Shown piece by piece: positions 412-8,503 of a stretch of DNA of 64,000 nucleotides (within the stretch, counting starts at the first letter, position 1; every line of letters begins with the position of its first letter). Origin of the DNA: Candidatus Kapaibacterium sp. (lineage in GTDB: Bacteria; Bacteroidota; Ignavibacteria; Kapaibacteriales; Kapaibacteriaceae); contig VFFB01000005.1 of assembly GCA_018882585.1 (NCBI GenBank), positions 1 through 64,000 of the forward strand. The letters run 5' to 3'. A program made the position numbers and the translations under genes. The notes beneath the pieces were generated by a model that saw only the letters and a program-made list of their open reading frames with translations, ran no database searches and had not been told where the DNA came from.

Positions 412-3225
412 ATGCTTTCGATATCAGAAATACGTAGTCGTGCATCAGCGTTTTCCCTTCGATGGAAGGATGAGGTCTCCGAAGACTCCGAAGCAAAGTC
501 CTTTTGGGATGAGTTCCTGCAGGTGTTCGGGGTCGACCGTAAGCGCGTCGCTGCATTTGAGAAACAGGTTGCCAAGGCCGGCGACAAAGCAGGGTACATC
601 GACCTGTTCTGGCCGGGCCTTCTGATCGTAGAGCATAAGTCGGCCGGGAAGGATCTGAACAAGGCCTTTACGCAGGCCATTGATTACTTCCCCGGACTGA
701 AGGACCACGAACTACCACGGTATGTGATCGTCAGCGATTTCCGTCGTATACGTCTTTATGATCTCACGGAAAGCACCGACGTCGAGATCGGTATCACGGA
801 GCTGCCTGACCGCATCGACCTTTTTGGATTCGTCTCGGGATACGTTCCGCGCAGGTTCCGCGACGAAGACCCCGTGAACGTGCGTGCCGCCGAGCTGATG
901 GGTCGGCTGCATGATGCGATCAAGGCCACGGGCTACGAAGGACATCAGCTTGAGGTCTTCCTGACGCGGCTGCTGTTCTGTCTGTTCGGCGACGACACGG
1001 GGATTTTTGGTCGAGATTCCTTTGTGAGCTTCCTCGAAACCAAGACCCGCGAGGATGGCCTCGATGTTGGACCGCAGCTTTCGTTTCTGTTCCAGATTCT
1101 CAACACGCCTTACGAGAAGCGTCCAACGAATCTCGACGAAGAGCTGAAGGCCTTTCCATACGTTAACGGTCAGCTCTTTGCCGAAGCGCTCCCAACGCCC
1201 CATTTCGACAGCGAGATGCGCAGGCGCCTGTTGGAATGCGCAAACTTCAACTGGACGTTTGTTTCGCCCGCCGTCTTTGGTGCAATGTTTCAAGGGGTGA
1301 TGAACGACGTTGAGCGCCGCAACCTTGGTGCGCACTACACAAGCGAGAAGAACATTCTGAAGGTGGTGTCGGGGCTGTTCCTGGACGAGGTGGAAGAGGA
1401 GCTTCGCAATGCGCAGCACTCGGAACATCGTCTGCGCGCATTGCACGAGCGCATCGCGAACATGCGATTCCTTGACCCCGCCTGCGGCTGTGGCAACTTC
1501 CTGATCGTGACATACAAAGAGCTTCGGCGAATCGAGATCGAAATCCTTGTGCGACTCGAATCAATGGGCAAACTCTCCGGCAAGGGACAGATCTACACCG
1601 ATGTCTCGGCGTTGTCACGTTTGTCCGTACACAGCATGTTCGGCATCGAGCTCGAGGAGTTCCCTGCCCGCATCGCCGAGGTGGCCTTGTGGCTGATCGA
1701 CCACATCATGAACGTCGAGCTTGCCAAGACCTTCGGCGGCTACTTCGTACGTCTGCCGCTCACCGATGGCCCCACCATCAAGATCGCCGACGCCCTGGAA
1801 GTTGATTGGCGCAAGGACATCATCGATACGAACGCAAGTGCCGAGTGGTTCATTCTTGGGAACCCGCCGTTCGTGGGTTCAAAGATGATGTCGGATGCGC
1901 AACGAACAGCCATCAAGCAGCTCTTTGGCGGAATCTCCGGCTCGGGCGTGATGGACTTTGTAACGGGCTGGTTTGTGAAAGCAGCACAGACCATTCAGGG
2001 AACACCGATACGATGTGCCTTCGTGAGCACCAACTCCATCTCACAGGGGGAACAAGTTGGAATCCTGTGGAAGCACCTCGTCCAGAAGTACGACATCAAG
2101 ATCCACTTCGCACATCGCACGTTCCGCTGGTCGAACGAAGCAAAAGGCGTGGCGGCGGTGCATTGTGTGATTGTAGGGTTTGGATGTCAAGACGTGGCGC
2201 ACAGATACTTGTTCGACTACGCCAACGTTACTGCAGCAGCAGCGAAGGCAGAGGTTCCTGCGATCAATGGGTACCTGACTGCCGGAGCACAGTTAGTGAT
2301 TCTCTCGAGAAAGAAACCTCTCTCCGCTGTTCCAGAGATGATGAAGGGCAATCAGCCGACAGACGACGGGAATCTACTACTGAGTCCAGATGAGCGCACC
2401 TTATTGATAGGTCAAGATAGCAACCTAGAACAGTTTGTCCGTGAGTGCATAGGTTCTTATGAGTTCCTTAATGGCATGAAACGCTATTGTCTATGGCTTG
2501 TTAACGCGGGTCCAAGTGTTATTCGGTCTTCGCCATTGTTGATGGAGCGGGTCGAATCCGTCAAGCGGTTCAGATCGCAGAGCACGAAGGCTGCAACGCG
2601 CAAGAAGGCAAACATGCCAACATTGTTTGATGAGATACGACAACCGATATCGAACTACTTGCTTGTCCCTTCTGTCTCATCCGAGAACAGGGAGTATATC
2701 CCGATGGGCTTTATGTCTCCAGATGTGATATCAACCAATCTGAACCTCATCGTCCCCGACGCCACACGCTACCACTTCGGCATTCTAACCTCCACCATGC
2801 ACATGTCATGGGTGCGGTACGTGTGTGGACGCTTGAAGTCGGACTATCGCTACTCGAAAGATCTCGTCTACAACAACTACCCTTGGCCCGAGCCCACCGA
2901 CGCGCAACGCGAAAAGGTTGAAGCACTCGCGCAAGGCGTCCTCGACGCACGTGCCAACCATCCAACGTCAACCTTGGCAGACCTCTATCACCCAACCACC
3001 ATGCCCCCTGACCTGCGCAAAGCACATGACGCACTCGACAAAGCTGTGGATCAGTGCTACCGTAAGGAGCCCTTCACATCAGAGCGTGAACGTGTAGAAT
3101 ACCTCTTTGACCTTTACCGGAAACCCACCGAAGGGTTTGGCGCGGAGGAGGCTGGGAGGAGGAAAGGAGGTGAGCGGATGCATCTCGGAACAAGCCTCCG
3201 ACGCAACAGGAGTGGACGAGCGTGA
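412..3225 (+). CDS. MmeI-like type IIL restriction-modification enzyme (fused nuclease / N6-adenine methylase / TRD)
   Basis: N-terminal D..EHK nuclease-like motif (GYIDLFWPGLLIVEHKSAG), methylase motif I FLDPACGCGNFLIVTYKELR, motif IV LGNPPFVGSK, C-terminal target-recognition-like region ending YNNYPWPEP. Start chosen at MLSISEIRSRASAF. Confidence 0.85.
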   Translation: MLSISEIRSRASAFSLRWKDEVSEDSEAKSFWDEFLQVFGVDRKRVAAFEKQVAKAGDKAGYIDLFWPGLLIVEHKSAGKDLNKAFTQAIDYFPGLKDHELPRYVIVSDFRRIRLYDLTESTDVEIGITELPDRIDLFGFVSGYVPRRFRDEDPVNVRAAELMGRLHDAIKATGYEGHQLEVFLTRLLFCLFGDDTGIFGRDSFVSFLETKTREDGLDVGPQLSFLFQILNTPYEKRPTNLDEELKAFPYVNGQLFAEALPTPHFDSEMRRRLLECANFNWTFVSPAVFGAMFQGVMNDVERRNLGAHYTSEKNILKVVSGLFLDEVEEELRNAQHSEHRLRALHERIANMRFLDPACGCGNFLIVTYKELRRIEIEILVRLESMGKLSGKGQIYTDVSALSRLSVHSMFGIELEEFPARIAEVALWLIDHIMNVELAKTFGGYFVRLPLTDGPTIKIADALEVDWRKDIIDTNASAEWFILGNPPFVGSKMMSDAQRTAIKQLFGGISGSGVMDFVTGWFVKAAQTIQGTPIRCAFVSTNSISQGEQVGILWKHLVQKYDIKIHFAHRTFRWSNEAKGVAAVHCVIVGFGCQDVAHRYLFDYANVTAAAAKAEVPAINGYLTAGAQLVILSRKKPLSAVPEMMKGNQPTDDGNLLLSPDERTLLIGQDSNLEQFVRECIGSYEFLNGMKRYCLWLVNAGPSVIRSSPLLMERVESVKRFRSQSTKAATRKKANMPTLFDEIRQPISNYLLVPSVSSENREYIPMGFMSPDVISTNLNLIVPDATRYHFGILTSTMHMSWVRYVCGRLKSDYRYSKDLVYNNYPWPEPTDAQREKVEALAQGVLDARANHPTSTLADLYHPTTMPPDLRKAHDALDKAVDQCYRKEPFTSERERVEYLFDLYRKPTEGFGAEEAGRRKGGERMHLGTSLRRNRSGRA

Positions 3226-3260: not shown

Positions 3261-3851
3261 TCAGGAACTCGGGTGAAGCGTCGTAGCAAGAATATGTCTA
3301 TACGGCAATTGCCGAAGGAATAGCTGGACATCGTTGGGAGCGTCGCGAAGAACCGTCTGCACGCTGCCGAACCATTTCTTACGCTCATTAACCAGATATG
3401 CATTGTTGAGGCCAAGCATATCTCGTGTTTGATATGTCTGGTGCCGCTGTTGGCGGGTCAGGTCAGGGACTGGTTCAATTGTACCCTTATCGGACAGCCA
3501 CCAGTGATTGTTGCAGCCCGGGCCCGGTTCGATTGGAAGTATTCCGTCCTTCTTCTTTTGACCGCAAGATTTGCTGTTGATGCAGCTGTGTGCATGGTTA
3601 GTGTATGTGAAGCAAAGCTGGGGATGAGAGCTTCTTGGCTTGATGTGTTCGAGCTGCCCTTCGTCACTCGCCAGCTTTCTTTCGCAATACACGCAAAGGC
3701 CTCCTTGATCAGTATTCAGCGAAGCTTTGACGGCTCTCTTGATGGCTTGAAATGAGGGTTGGTCGAAGTCGACAACGGATGCTTGGGGATTGGTGTTTTG
3801 GAAATTTGCTAGCTCGACTGGCGGTGGATCGCGGTGCTGTAACTCAACCAT
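3261..3851 (-). CDS. ptuB: PtuB-like HNH endonuclease (TIGR02646-like)
   Basis: GLCVYCERKLASDEGQLEHIKPRSSHP...HSCINSKSCGQKK...CNNHWW HNH/zinc pattern; start MVELQHRDPPPVELANF overlaps the stop of the upstream ATPase gene (ATGgtTGA). Confidence 0.75.
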   Translation of the reverse strand: MVELQHRDPPPVELANFQNTNPQASVVDFDQPSFQAIKRAVKASLNTDQGGLCVYCERKLASDEGQLEHIKPRSSHPQLCFTYTNHAHSCINSKSCGQKKKDGILPIEPGPGCNNHWWLSDKGTIEPVPDLTRQQRHQTYQTRDMLGLNNAYLVNERKKWFGSVQTVLRDAPNDVQLFLRQLPYRHILATTLHPSS

Positions 3852-5226
3852 GTTCGACTCCATCGTTGGAGCTATGGCTGGCGAGGAATCTCCAGGCAGC
3901 CAAGTCACTTTCATGGTGCTGATACCCCGCTTCTTCGAGCTTCGTCCGCAGCAGTTGGGCTTGTTCAGTAAGCTCCTTTCCTGCACGTACTAGATACTCG
4001 AACAACCTGACCTGCTCCAGAAGCTGTAGTGGTGGCTCAGGATTCGTGTCCATCACTCTCGCTAGGGCATCGCCGGATTCGTGTGCCAATGGGCTGAAGT
4101 CAGGCGCATTTGCGCGGCAGCCGGAATCATCGCACTCCACAACACGAATGCTTTCGCGAGGTACTGTTGAAAGGACCTGCGGACTGTGAGTAGTTACAAT
4201 GAACTGCAGCTCTGGAAACGCCTTCGTTAGGCTTTGCAGTACGGTTTGCTGCCATGAGGGGTGCAGGTGCATGTCAACTTCGTCGATCAGAACTATACCC
4301 GGCGTCTGCGCTGCAGCCTGTGCACCTAGGTGTCCATTGAGCTTCGTTGCACGAAACGCAATGTCGGCAACCATCCCTATCATGTTGCGGATGCCGTCAC
4401 TGAGAAGCGAGATCGGCAGTTCACCGTATTCGTCGTGTTCTGCAACGAGTTCCTGTAACGCTGATGAATAGTCTATGTTTTTCCATCCAGCGGGAGCGAG
4501 GCAGATATTGACGGCCCGAATGACAGACGACACATAGCCATCAAATTCCGTTGGTTCGTAATCTCGGCCTTGTTTGCGGGCCGCATTGTGTTCACGACTA
4601 ATGTTGTCGTTCCAATAGGCAAACCACTCCACAAACGACTTGAAACTGGATGCTGGATCCAGACAATCGCGATAGCCAATCGTTCGCGACGAACGCGTGA
4701 GTTTTCGCCTCGTAAGCTTCTTTTGCTGCCACAGTCGCCCCGTACCGTAGTATGCCACCAGTGGCAACACCACATTCATTCCGGGAGTCCTGACAGCTGC
4801 CTGCAGGTCCTTTCCGATATCAATGAGTTTCTTCGCTTCCTTGATTGTCGTCTTCGTCTTCACCGGGCCCGTCAGTCGGCGGCTCCATGTAACAACCTTT
4901 GTGCCGACATCCTTCCCCACCCCATCGAATTGAAAGCAACCGGTAGCTTCAAGACCGACACCATTAACTGCATATTCCATCTCCTTCGAGGCAGTGCTCC
5001 GAATCGCAGTTTGTCGGATATCAGTCGAATGAAAATGCTTGCCAACGCTCTCGTCAAACGCTCCGATGAAAGGGCCAAGGGCAATTCCAACAGCATCAAG
5101 TATTGCTGTCTTGCCAGCACCGTTGGCTGCAACAATCACTGTAAGCTTTTCATGGAACTCTATCTCAAGTGAGGGAAAACAGCGATAGTCCGTCACCTTA
5201 AGTTGTTGTAGACGAAATGTTGTCAT
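3844..5226 (-). CDS. ptuA: PtuA-like AAA/SMC-type ATPase
   Basis: Walker A VIVAANGAGKTAILDAVG, Walker B GIVLIDEVDMHLHPSWQQ, FIVTTHSPQVLSTV; translationally coupled to the HNH gene. Start at MTTFRLQQLKVTDYRCF. Confidence 0.8.
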   Translation of the reverse strand: MTTFRLQQLKVTDYRCFPSLEIEFHEKLTVIVAANGAGKTAILDAVGIALGPFIGAFDESVGKHFHSTDIRQTAIRSTASKEMEYAVNGVGLEATGCFQFDGVGKDVGTKVVTWSRRLTGPVKTKTTIKEAKKLIDIGKDLQAAVRTPGMNVVLPLVAYYGTGRLWQQKKLTRRKLTRSSRTIGYRDCLDPASSFKSFVEWFAYWNDNISREHNAARKQGRDYEPTEFDGYVSSVIRAVNICLAPAGWKNIDYSSALQELVAEHDEYGELPISLLSDGIRNMIGMVADIAFRATKLNGHLGAQAAAQTPGIVLIDEVDMHLHPSWQQTVLQSLTKAFPELQFIVTTHSPQVLSTVPRESIRVVECDDSGCRANAPDFSPLAHESGDALARVMDTNPEPPLQLLEQVRLFEYLVRAGKELTEQAQLLRTKLEEAGYQHHESDLAAWRFLASHSSNDGVEHG

Positions 5227-5249
5227 GGGACCTCCGAAGAACGGCCACG

Positions 5250-5288: not shown

Positions 5289-5439
5289 AAATGTGCAAAG
5301 AGGGTGACAACTTACTACGGCGCTTCATTTTGCTTGACATGCATTACATCAGTCAGTCACTGATGCTAACGTGTAGTTTTGAACGTGCTTGCACGCACGT
5401 GGTCAGACCCCGAGCGATTGAAAGGACACAATGGTTCAC

Positions 5440-5746
5440 CCGATGGCCAGCCGAGATAATGTCGTCGAGATTGTAGTTATCTACTTCTCGTGCAACCTGT
5501 CGTTTGCCCTCAGTTCGAACTATCCGGAATCTCAGGATAGCTGACGCATCTGATAGTTCAACGCTGTCAACGTGCTTGGGCAAATACTCGTTCATGGTTC
5601 GAACATCCGGCCCGAACAGCTGCGCCATACGCCGCTGGTATTGCCAGAATATCCCGGCATCGTAGTGCACCTCGACACGCACTGAATCGTCGGCGGGGGC
5701 GGTTCAGGAATATGTCGGCATTACAGGTGGGATTGTCAGGCGTCAT
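5440..5746 (-). pseudogene. RhuM-family protein remnant (fragment B), frameshifted and truncated
   Basis: MTPDNPTCNADIFLNRP, then after a C-run frame change ADDSVRVEVHYDAGIFWQYQRRMAQLFGPDVRTMNEYL...ILRFRIVRTEGKRQVAREVDNYNLDDIISAGHRVN; similarity is lost afterwards. Confidence 0.65.
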
Positions 5747-6138: not shown

Positions 6139-6162
6139 TAGCCCACGGCCTCAGCCGTGGGT
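6139..6162. repeat. REP-like palindrome B
   Basis: TAGCCCACGGCCTCAGCCGTGGGT; CCCACGGC/GCCGTGGG hairpin. Confidence 0.8.
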
Positions 6163-6220
6163 CCGAATGAACGGCAATGCGCCGTGGGTGCGAACAAACC
6201 ATCAACGCATTCCATCGACG

Positions 6221-6300
6221 CCGTAGGGGCGCGGCATGCCGCGCCCGCACCAACGCATTTGCACACACGCGAGCCCACGGCTGAGGCCGTGGGCTAATAT
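6221..6300 (+). repeat. 80-bp composite REP-like repeat (A+B), left copy
   Basis: CCGTAGGGGCGCGGCATGCCGCGCCCGCACC...GAGCCCACGGCTGAGGCCGTGGGCTAATAT, identical to 7850-7929. Confidence 0.9.
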
Positions 6301-6450
6301 CGGTCGATGTCCGAATGACCGTGAGTTTGTATTGATTGGAGCGAACGATCCCTCATTGGAGTGCGAATTGGGAAAGCACAAGCCGTAGGTTCGGCAGCGA
6401 CAAGTATCTTCCACTCCTATTGGAGACCTTGTGTTCAGGAGTTGCGACCA

Positions 6451-7821
6451 ATGGCAAACAAATCCCTCAAGCAGCGGATATCGGATCTCTCACATGATGA
6501 GCTTCTTTCGGTTGTTGTCGCTGCCATGGAATCTGAACCCAGCGTACGCAAGCTCTTTGCACACCTGACGTCATCCCGTAACGAGCGCATCGCTGCGATC
6601 AAAGGCGATATTTCCAAACTCGGCGCCTACGGCGCAAAGGGCAGAGCCCAATCCTCTAAGCAGGTAGCCGCATCAATCTCCAGTCTGGCTGATCGCATCA
6701 ATCGGGAATGTGGCGACGACGCCGAGCAGGCATTCATCCTACTTTCTCGTCTTCTTGCCACCGAGACGCAAATCAGGCTCCGCCGAAGTGACTCGTTCGA
6801 CCCCATCATCAACGTTATGGCTGGCAAGGTAACCGATTCATTGGTAGGAGTCTCTCAGCGCCTGTCCAGTGCGGACGTGTTGACGGAGGGATTGGGGTTC
6901 CTTTTGGATGTCGGCCATTTCCGTGGAGTCGCGGCATTGTTCCGGCGCGCCGGTGCCGAGCTGCCCGATGAGACAGTCGACACGATTCTTGCACTGGTCG
7001 CCGCATCCACGGCCAAGGCGTCTGATATTAAACACGCAGATGAATTCGAAATGTACCACGGACTCGCCGGAATCATTCTCTCTTCCACCGGCAGGATCGA
7101 AGCGTTCCGGCGCCATGTCACTGTAAACGGCGTCATCAGTTCGTTGGATCGCATCACTCTTGCCGAAATGTATCTCGACCATGGCAACTATAAAGGGGCA
7201 AGGGTACTCCTCGACGAGCTCTCCGCGACTGATTACCGATTGTTCGCGCGTGCACAAGCAGTGCTAGAGCGCTACCTGGGGGAATGCCCCGAGATGGCCG
7301 ACTGCGAGGGGCTGATGCGCTCAATGATCGTAAAGCACAACAAGCATCAGTTAGCTGCCCGGTTTCTGCAACTGTACGGTGATGATGCATATGCCAATCT
7401 TTTGGGATCGGTCATGCAATACATATGCACCGAACAAGAACCGGACACTATAGATGCCAACATGCTGCATCTTCTTGTGCACGAAGGATACGGCGACGAG
7501 ATCGCCGGCTATGTCGAAGGCAACTACGCCACCAGTCTCTCGCGCAATAGCCACAGCCTGCAACCTTGGGTCGCTTTGGCCGAATCCTTGGCCAGTTGTG
7601 GTCATCCACGTCCGGCCGCACTCCTTTTTCGATTGATTGTCAATCGACTGATGCTTGCAGGAGCCGATGCATACGATACGGCCGCGACACTGTTCAGCCG
7701 TGTCCAAGATCTATCACGTAACGTAGGTAACTGGGGGCCGCACGAACAGCACAAGGACTTCATGATCAACTTCAGGCTGATGCATGCAAACAAGCGGAAG
7801 TTCTGGAGTCTGGTCGGTTGA
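6451..7821 (+). CDS. DUF6880-like / helical-repeat protein of unknown function
   Basis: MANKSLKQRISDLSHDELLSVVVAAMESEPSVRKLF... long helical repeat ORF ending H..FM.NFR..HANKRKFWSLVG. Confidence 0.6.
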   Translation: MANKSLKQRISDLSHDELLSVVVAAMESEPSVRKLFAHLTSSRNERIAAIKGDISKLGAYGAKGRAQSSKQVAASISSLADRINRECGDDAEQAFILLSRLLATETQIRLRRSDSFDPIINVMAGKVTDSLVGVSQRLSSADVLTEGLGFLLDVGHFRGVAALFRRAGAELPDETVDTILALVAASTAKASDIKHADEFEMYHGLAGIILSSTGRIEAFRRHVTVNGVISSLDRITLAEMYLDHGNYKGARVLLDELSATDYRLFARAQAVLERYLGECPEMADCEGLMRSMIVKHNKHQLAARFLQLYGDDAYANLLGSVMQYICTEQEPDTIDANMLHLLVHEGYGDEIAGYVEGNYATSLSRNSHSLQPWVALAESLASCGHPRPAALLFRLIVNRLMLAGADAYDTAATLFSRVQDLSRNVGNWGPHEQHKDFMINFRLMHANKRKFWSLVG

Positions 7822-7849
7822 GCGGGTCCACCAACACATTTCACCATCC

Positions 7850-7929
7850 CCGTAGGGGCGCGGCATGCCGCGCCCGCACCAACGCATTTGCACACACGCG
7901 AGCCCACGGCTGAGGCCGTGGGCTAATAT
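7850..7929 (+). repeat. 80-bp composite REP-like repeat (A+B), right copy
   Basis: Exact direct repeat of 6221-6300. Confidence 0.9.
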
Positions 7930-8079
7930 GGGTCGACGATCGATAGGCGGGACGTGGGATAATATGGGTCGACGTTGGAATGGCCGACCATTCGTTCAAA
8001 CGTTGATGGCCGTTCCGCAACGATGTGATGCCATGCATCTCCGCCGTTCGCACCGGGTTCATCATACGTCGGCCCATCT

Positions 8080-8503
8080 TAGCCCACGGCCTCAGCCGTG
8101 GGTTCGAATGAACGGCAATGCGCCGTGGATGCGAAAGAACGGCATTGTGCCGTGGATGCAAACAAACCACCAACGCATTCCACCGTCTCAGCACGGGCGC
8201 GGCATGCCGCGCCCCTACATTATGTGGTACGTCGATCGAAATCAGGCGCATCCGCGCGTGCATACATGCGAACCCACGGCTGAGGCCGTGGGCTAATATG
8301 GGTCGACGTCGGAATGGCCGTGGGTTAACATGGGTCAACGATCGATAGGCGGGACGTTCGTTTCAACGTTTAATGCCGGTCCGCAATGGTGCAATGCATG
8401 TCCGTCGTTCCCATCGGGCACATCATGCGTCGGCCTATAGTAGCCCACGGCCTCAGCCGTGGGTGCGAATGAACGGCATTAGCCCACGGCCTCAGCCGTG
8501 GGT
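8080..8503. repeat. Cluster of REP-like palindromes A and B
   Basis: B units at 8080-8103, 8271-8297, 8441-8464, 8480-8503; A palindrome at 8195-8214 (inverted, ends GCCCCTAC). Confidence 0.85.

Follow-up and report, generated by a model that had tools for sequence, protein, structure and literature searches.

The window analysed here, by which we mean the whole 64,000-nt stretch of Candidatus Kapaibacterium sp. contig VFFB01000005.1, contains two unbroken genes, ptuA and ptuB, which lie adjacent on the same strand with ptuA first, an order shared by nearly all relatives (Table 1). The product of ptuA is an ABC/SMC-type ATPase whose catalytic motifs are intact (Walker A K39, Walker B D315/E316, H-loop H347), and that of ptuB is a TIGR02646-type HNH nuclease in which H69 and N85 of the HNH motif are present along with C53/C56. 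The original prediction had seen here an ATPase frame translationally coupled to an HNH frame, and both frames are confirmed, together with their 8-nt overlap ATGGTTGA. The pair has a G+C content of 0.519, compared with 0.583 for the whole window, and in a set of 297 genomes from the phylum a close relative of this PtuB turns up in the window's own genome and in no other. PtuAB is thus a horizontally acquired, patchily distributed gene pair, as is usual for defence genes.

Table 1. Features of the Septu locus and its neighbours in the window
Feature	Position	Strand	Description
MmeI-type (IIG/IIL) restriction-modification enzyme	412..3225	+	Convergent neighbour, outside the Septu system
ptuB	3261..3851	-	TIGR02646-type HNH nuclease, 196 aa, class a; ATG at 3851-3849, end at 3261
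ptuA	3844..5226	-	ABC/SMC-type ATPase, 460 aa; ATG at 5226-5224, stop TGA at 3846-3844
Stop/start overlap ATGGTTGA (ATGgtTGA)	3844..3851	-	8 nt, translational coupling; from sequence
PtuA C-terminal module, residues 370-460, class a	3847..4119	-	End of beta-hairpin and four helices; probable PtuB dock
Module junction zone, residues 353-369	4120..4170	-	Change points and drop in nucleotide identity
PtuA ATPase (N) module, residues 1-352	4171..5226	-	Walker A, signature, Walker B, H-loop; sliding-window analysis
ptuA ribosome-binding site GGAGG	5231..5235	-	Four bases before the ATG; from sequence
RhuM-family gene remnant	5353..5682	-	PADLOC PDC-S05, 8.1e-22 over 83 residues

As judged from profiles, sequence and fold, the locus is an intact two-gene operon of Septu type I, of the ordinary kind without a reverse transcriptase (RT), and it is predicted to act against phages. 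The original prediction, which named a stand-alone PtuA-PtuB pair and suggested profile searches and a tree as checks, is borne out by the PADLOC profiles, which match both proteins (PtuA1, E = 1.9e-154; PtuB1, E = 2.7e-89), and by TIGR02646, which matches PtuB with 69.6 bits (cut-off 52.15). By sequence, the nearest solved relative of PtuA is the PtuA of E. coli Septu (PDB 8ee4, E = 7.4e-86), to which the match is stronger than to retron Ec78 PtuA (E = 1.4e-42), and in the PtuA tree the window's protein groups with Septu proteins that have no RT, with retron PtuA outside (100*). An AF2 model of PtuA, built from 50 aligned sequences (mean pLDDT 91.6, pTM 0.89), finds as its best PDB match in Foldseek a chain of the Septu PtuAB complex (8eea_D, TM 0.85). 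A generic repair ATPase of the RecF/SMC/OLD type beside an unrelated HNH gene would also contain the Pfam AAA_21, AAA_15 and SMC_N domains that are found here, and RecF, RecN and Rad50 do match the ATPase weakly. However, the PtuA profiles beat those of repair ATPases by more than 100 orders of magnitude, and among the family-specific profiles RecF reaches 41.7 of 172 bits, with SMC and RecN likewise far under their cut-offs. With an HNH gene directly downstream in nearly all relatives and a fold that matches Septu PtuA, we give this alternative practically no weight.

Among characterised systems, the E. coli ATCC 25922 Septu (PDB 8EE4, 8EE7, 8EEA; PtuA6:PtuB2) has the identical gene pair in the identical order and is likewise RT-less; its PtuA has 465 residues against 460 in the window, and its PtuB 243 in the PDB entry against 196. 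Septu EcB88 is another stand-alone PtuAB pair, in which Walker and HNH residues are essential (PMC13096335), and the spacing of 16 between the H and N of its PtuB (H75/N91, PMC13096335) recurs in the window's PtuB (H69/N85).

The gene that faces ptuB tail to tail, at a distance of 35 bp, encodes a single-chain, apparently complete MmeI-type restriction-modification (R-M) enzyme (PADLOC REase_MTase_IIG, 1163.7 bits; five MmeI Pfam domains). Its adjacency to PtuAB had been correctly described, and the original prediction had gone on to propose that the two form one combined defence locus, a proposal for which the close tail-to-tail arrangement speaks. We nevertheless find this improbable. The two lie on opposite strands and share no operon, unrelated defence genes usually cluster, and in 80 relatives whose flanks were searched for up to 8 kb on either side, neither the R-M gene nor the RhuM remnant on the other side had a homologue. 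The RhuM fragment, which had been called decayed, is real, but it is a remnant only, which Pfam RhuM matches over 36 residues and under its cut-off. An inverted repeat in the leader of ptuA had been credited with significance as well, and as a regulator it is ruled out: the fold of the leader has a z-score of 0.08 against shuffled sequence, which is chance level, and a search for inverted repeats of at least 10 nt that have both arms within the 126-nt leader found none.

Further along, at window positions 6142-8502, the 20-bp palindrome CCCACGGC(CTCA/TGAG)GCCGTGGG occurs in seven exact copies where none is expected. It has 31 copies genome-wide, often as inverted pairs about 130-190 bp apart, and is a REP/BIME-like repeat; all seven copies in the window score weakly as Acido-Lenti-1 RNA (21-23.6 bits, cut-off 37). 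Palindromic repeats lie on either side of a gene for a 457-aa protein with DUF6880/TPR-like similarity (6451-7821).

The same two effector families are found in the type I-A retrons Ec78/Eco7 and Ec83/Eco4 ('Septu type II'), whose PtuA and PtuB are homologous to the window's, and the operon might therefore be a retron Ec78-type effector pair that has lost its RT and msDNA. Retron profiles indeed match both proteins (NF041760 for PtuA, 1e-76; NF041761 for PtuB, 6e-21). Yet both scores remain far under the curated cut-offs of these equivalogs (258.8 of 500 and 75.2 of 150 bits), PtuA has 460 residues and not the roughly 550 of its retron counterparts, PtuB belongs to class a instead of the class c of retrons (classes are described below), and the PtuA tree, as noted, leaves retron PtuA outside. 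In addition, the RT that in those retrons lies directly upstream of ptuA and overlaps it is absent from the window. The original prediction had seen no RT ORF in the window and had named an RT just outside it as grounds for rejection; with RVT_1 we found none, neither in the window nor in the rest of the genome (2.79 Mb, 100% complete). The contig begins at window position 1, but nothing is missing from the region above 5226, upstream of ptuA, where a retron RT would be expected. A profile made from annotated plasmid retrons likewise placed a retron RT near none of 81 PtuA relatives (0/81), the one match in their flanks being weak and distant (about 6 kb, L077). No Rfam match to an msr-msd RNA was found at the locus, Rfam covering few retron RNAs. 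A derivation from a retron is thus very improbable, and a hidden retron is ruled out by the genome and by the relatives' flanks. Nor does the missing RT deserve the attention that the original prediction gave it: the RT-linked form makes up about 7.6% of Septu systems in a PADLOC survey (PMC8565338), so that Septu without an RT is the common form and its absence here, as near the relatives, is unremarkable.

Among PtuA relatives on viral contigs, in contrast to the bacterial genomes sampled, most are retron-linked, with a retron-type RT close upstream of ptuA in 19 of 27 (L122-L148).

Two modules, which meet directly behind the H-loop, make PtuA a mosaic. The histories of the modules were compared in 78 PtuA/PtuB pairs, in which PtuB forms four main classes, a to d, that were taken from a quick tree, the distance analysis being independent of these labels. 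Across the 78 pairs, distances in the N module are hardly correlated with those of PtuB (r = 0.16) or of the C module (r = 0.20), whereas the C module follows PtuB closely (r = 0.91); in the 64 pairs that remain after removal of retrons and long branches, the corresponding values are 0.18, 0.18 and 0.93. Taken by itself, class a (n = 9) shows a weak correlation of C module and PtuB (0.26). A scan in windows of 20 residues divides the protein. Up to about residue 355, PtuA correlates with the remaining core, with r mostly 0.7-0.87 and lower values over the first ~30 residues and the conserved Walker B stretch, but does not follow PtuB. From about residue 363 onwards, it tracks PtuB (partial r mostly 0.7-0.8) and the core only a little. 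The observed correlation of tail and PtuB was reached in 0 of 5000 permutations. A travelling part of only the last ~25 residues had been considered, and the sliding-window analysis widened it to about 100.

The trees agree with the distances. PtuB class changes 29 times on the N-module tree and 4 times on the C-module tree, where the minimum is 3, and the starred branches of the N-module tree alone force 6, 9, 8 and 5 changes for classes a, b, c and d. Class a is a single clade in the C-module tree (100*) and in the PtuB tree (100*), and an AU test rejects it as a single clade for the N module (delta lnL 644, p = 2e-5). Restricting the tree to the ATPase half gave the window's protein other neighbours, which means that a tree or name derived from the complete PtuA blends two histories. 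The grouping of the window with L032-L035, a clade in whole PtuA (99*), is a case that we rejected: the N module alone refuses it (delta lnL 156), so the grouping came from C-terminal columns. Many of the relatives are metagenome-assembled genomes. Since each operon lies on one contig, mis-binning cannot create the mosaic pattern, and isolates (Pseudomonas, Rugamonas, Rhodanobacter and others) likewise carry different PtuB classes.

Single pairs make the exchange visible. L042 and L043 are 88% identical in the N module, 26% in the C module and 25% in PtuB; for L032/L039 the values are 85%, 24% and 20%, and for L063/L076 they are 81%, 23% and 21%. The opposite pattern links the window to L065, with 44% in the core, 59% in the C module and 60% in PtuB. 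Indeed, the core of the window's PtuA is equally near to all four classes (65-66%), and its C module (67%) and PtuB (62%) are near to class a only. The E. coli ATCC 25922 Septu is itself a mosaic, whose core is nearest to the class-a locus L065 (52%) and whose cassette is nearest to class b (C module 64%, PtuB 56%); its C-terminal module and PtuB are thus of class b, unlike the window's, and its PtuB is at most 27% identical to any class-a member.

Thirteen cross-class pairs, three of which include the window, place the change points at window residues 352-369, just past the H-loop helix THSPQVL. At the matching place the nucleotide identity of seven pairs, 60-90% up to about ptuA 1,075-1,090, falls to background (about 30-50%). 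In the AF2 model of PtuA a short helix (349-352) and a hairpin (360-373) are followed by four helices to the end (384-390, 401-414, 421-432 and 439-457), which puts the junction close to a structural boundary. After divergence of the classes, a crossover anywhere in the conserved ATPase half would swap everything downstream of it, and the visible boundary would stay where homology ends.

An explanation without recombination would be that the C-terminal part evolves faster and co-varies with PtuB through contact. It does vary more than the rest of PtuA, and co-variation is known for interface residues. However, co-variation cannot yield C modules of 59-65% identity over cores of 40-44% (window/L065, L064/L065), nor C modules of 24-26% under cores that are 85-88% identical; the nucleotide identity falls at one sharp place, and PtuB, a separate gene, jumps along with the C-terminal part. 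We regard co-variation alone as unlikely. That the nuclease and the last ~100 residues of PtuA have been exchanged repeatedly as one unit is well supported by these sequence comparisons. Within E. coli no exchange was seen: the system occurs in 88 of 5,426 genomes, with one allele in both halves. Retron loci contrast with the shuffled Septu loci: in a set of 19, the RT distances match those of PtuB (r = 0.89), which suggests that exchange is more restricted in the RT-linked form; with only 7 closely related pairs among them, the contrast is provisional.

Differing cassettes also occur inside one bacterial family. The Candidatus Kapaibacterium relatives L056/L003, from the window's own family, have a Septu core 64% identical to the window's and a class-c cassette, with 16% identity in the C module and 24% in PtuB.

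Most likely, the last ~100 residues of PtuA are the docking element for PtuB. If the C-terminal part binds PtuB, dock and nuclease would be replaceable only together. The published structures lend this indirect support. Of the PtuA chains in 8EEA, two are modelled over 445-456 residues and two over 372-375, and those in the hexamer of PtuA only (8SUX) over 364-376; these values come from a Foldseek table that gives modelled chain lengths and is silent on which residues are missing. They fit a C-terminal part, about 90 of 465 residues, that is ordered only on PtuB-bound protomers. A one-chain model of a PtuA-PtuB fusion, which bears only on docking in cis over an artificial short linker, gave no docking signal (pTM 0.66), and the pLDDT of the tail fell.

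Taken together, it is highly probable that the window holds an intact Septu type I operon in which an ATPase core is combined with an exchangeable C-terminal dock/nuclease cassette, here of class a. The original prediction had left open how the pair is held inactive, and this stands in part; for E. coli Septu, Li et al. 2024 reportedly found that PtuAB is inhibited by ATP binding to PtuA. By analogy, PtuA would oligomerise, act as the ATPase sensor of infection and hold the nuclease in check, so that class-a PtuB stays inactive in uninfected cells. A signal from infection would alter the PtuA assembly, the restraint would be lost, and the HNH nuclease PtuB would then cut DNA or tRNA, as in studied relatives, so that phage multiplication fails. 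Between lineages, ATPase cores would be interchangeable, with dock and nuclease swapped beneath them as a single cassette. The ATP-sensitive restraint, the nuclease target and the anti-phage activity are thus proposed for this locus from its relatives, among which the PtuA6:PtuB2 complex and its nuclease action have been described (PMC12948488, PMC12198126) and the Septu trigger is listed as detection of phage SSB (PMC12904381). Septu EcB88 cleaves tRNA-Tyr on infection and requires its Walker and HNH residues to do so (PMC13096335). For class a, to which the window belongs, we found no solved or tested member.

As a Septu operon, the locus itself is ordinary; the unexpected finding is the cassette structure of the operon. 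Literature searches found no report of cassette exchange in Septu, which speaks only weakly for its novelty. Few defence systems are as widespread as Septu, and the PtuAB pairs studied so far are reported to cut differing targets (nicked or single-stranded DNA, tRNA-Tyr), without explanation. Joint replacement of nuclease and dock under a common ATPase would account for these differences. It also points to the location of the PtuB interface, predicts which chimeras should function, and makes the question of whether the target follows the cassette directly testable. We lean towards reading Septu as a polymorphic-effector platform, in which the trigger would go with a conserved sensing core and the target (DNA or a particular tRNA) with swapped cassettes of at least four circulating classes, joined at a fixed junction after the H-loop; class a, as yet unstudied, may then attack a different target. 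In polymorphic toxin and CDI systems, a conserved N-terminal platform carries a C-terminal end that can be replaced and moves together with the gene next to it. Their end, too, is joined at a fixed conserved place, as in PtuA, and the comparison is meant only as one of how the systems work. In contrast to those delivered toxins, PtuA is an intracellular defence ATPase, and its swapped end is probably a dock and not the toxin itself.

The exchange of C modules may also bear on annotation. In the E. coli ATCC 25922 genome, RefSeq labels ptuA (L119:2560-3957, NZ_CP158443.1) as 'frameshifted' with a hypothetical protein, but it is in fact one intact ORF of 465 codons that matches the solved PtuA 8EE4; the frameshift call is possibly an artefact of alignment to another C-module class.
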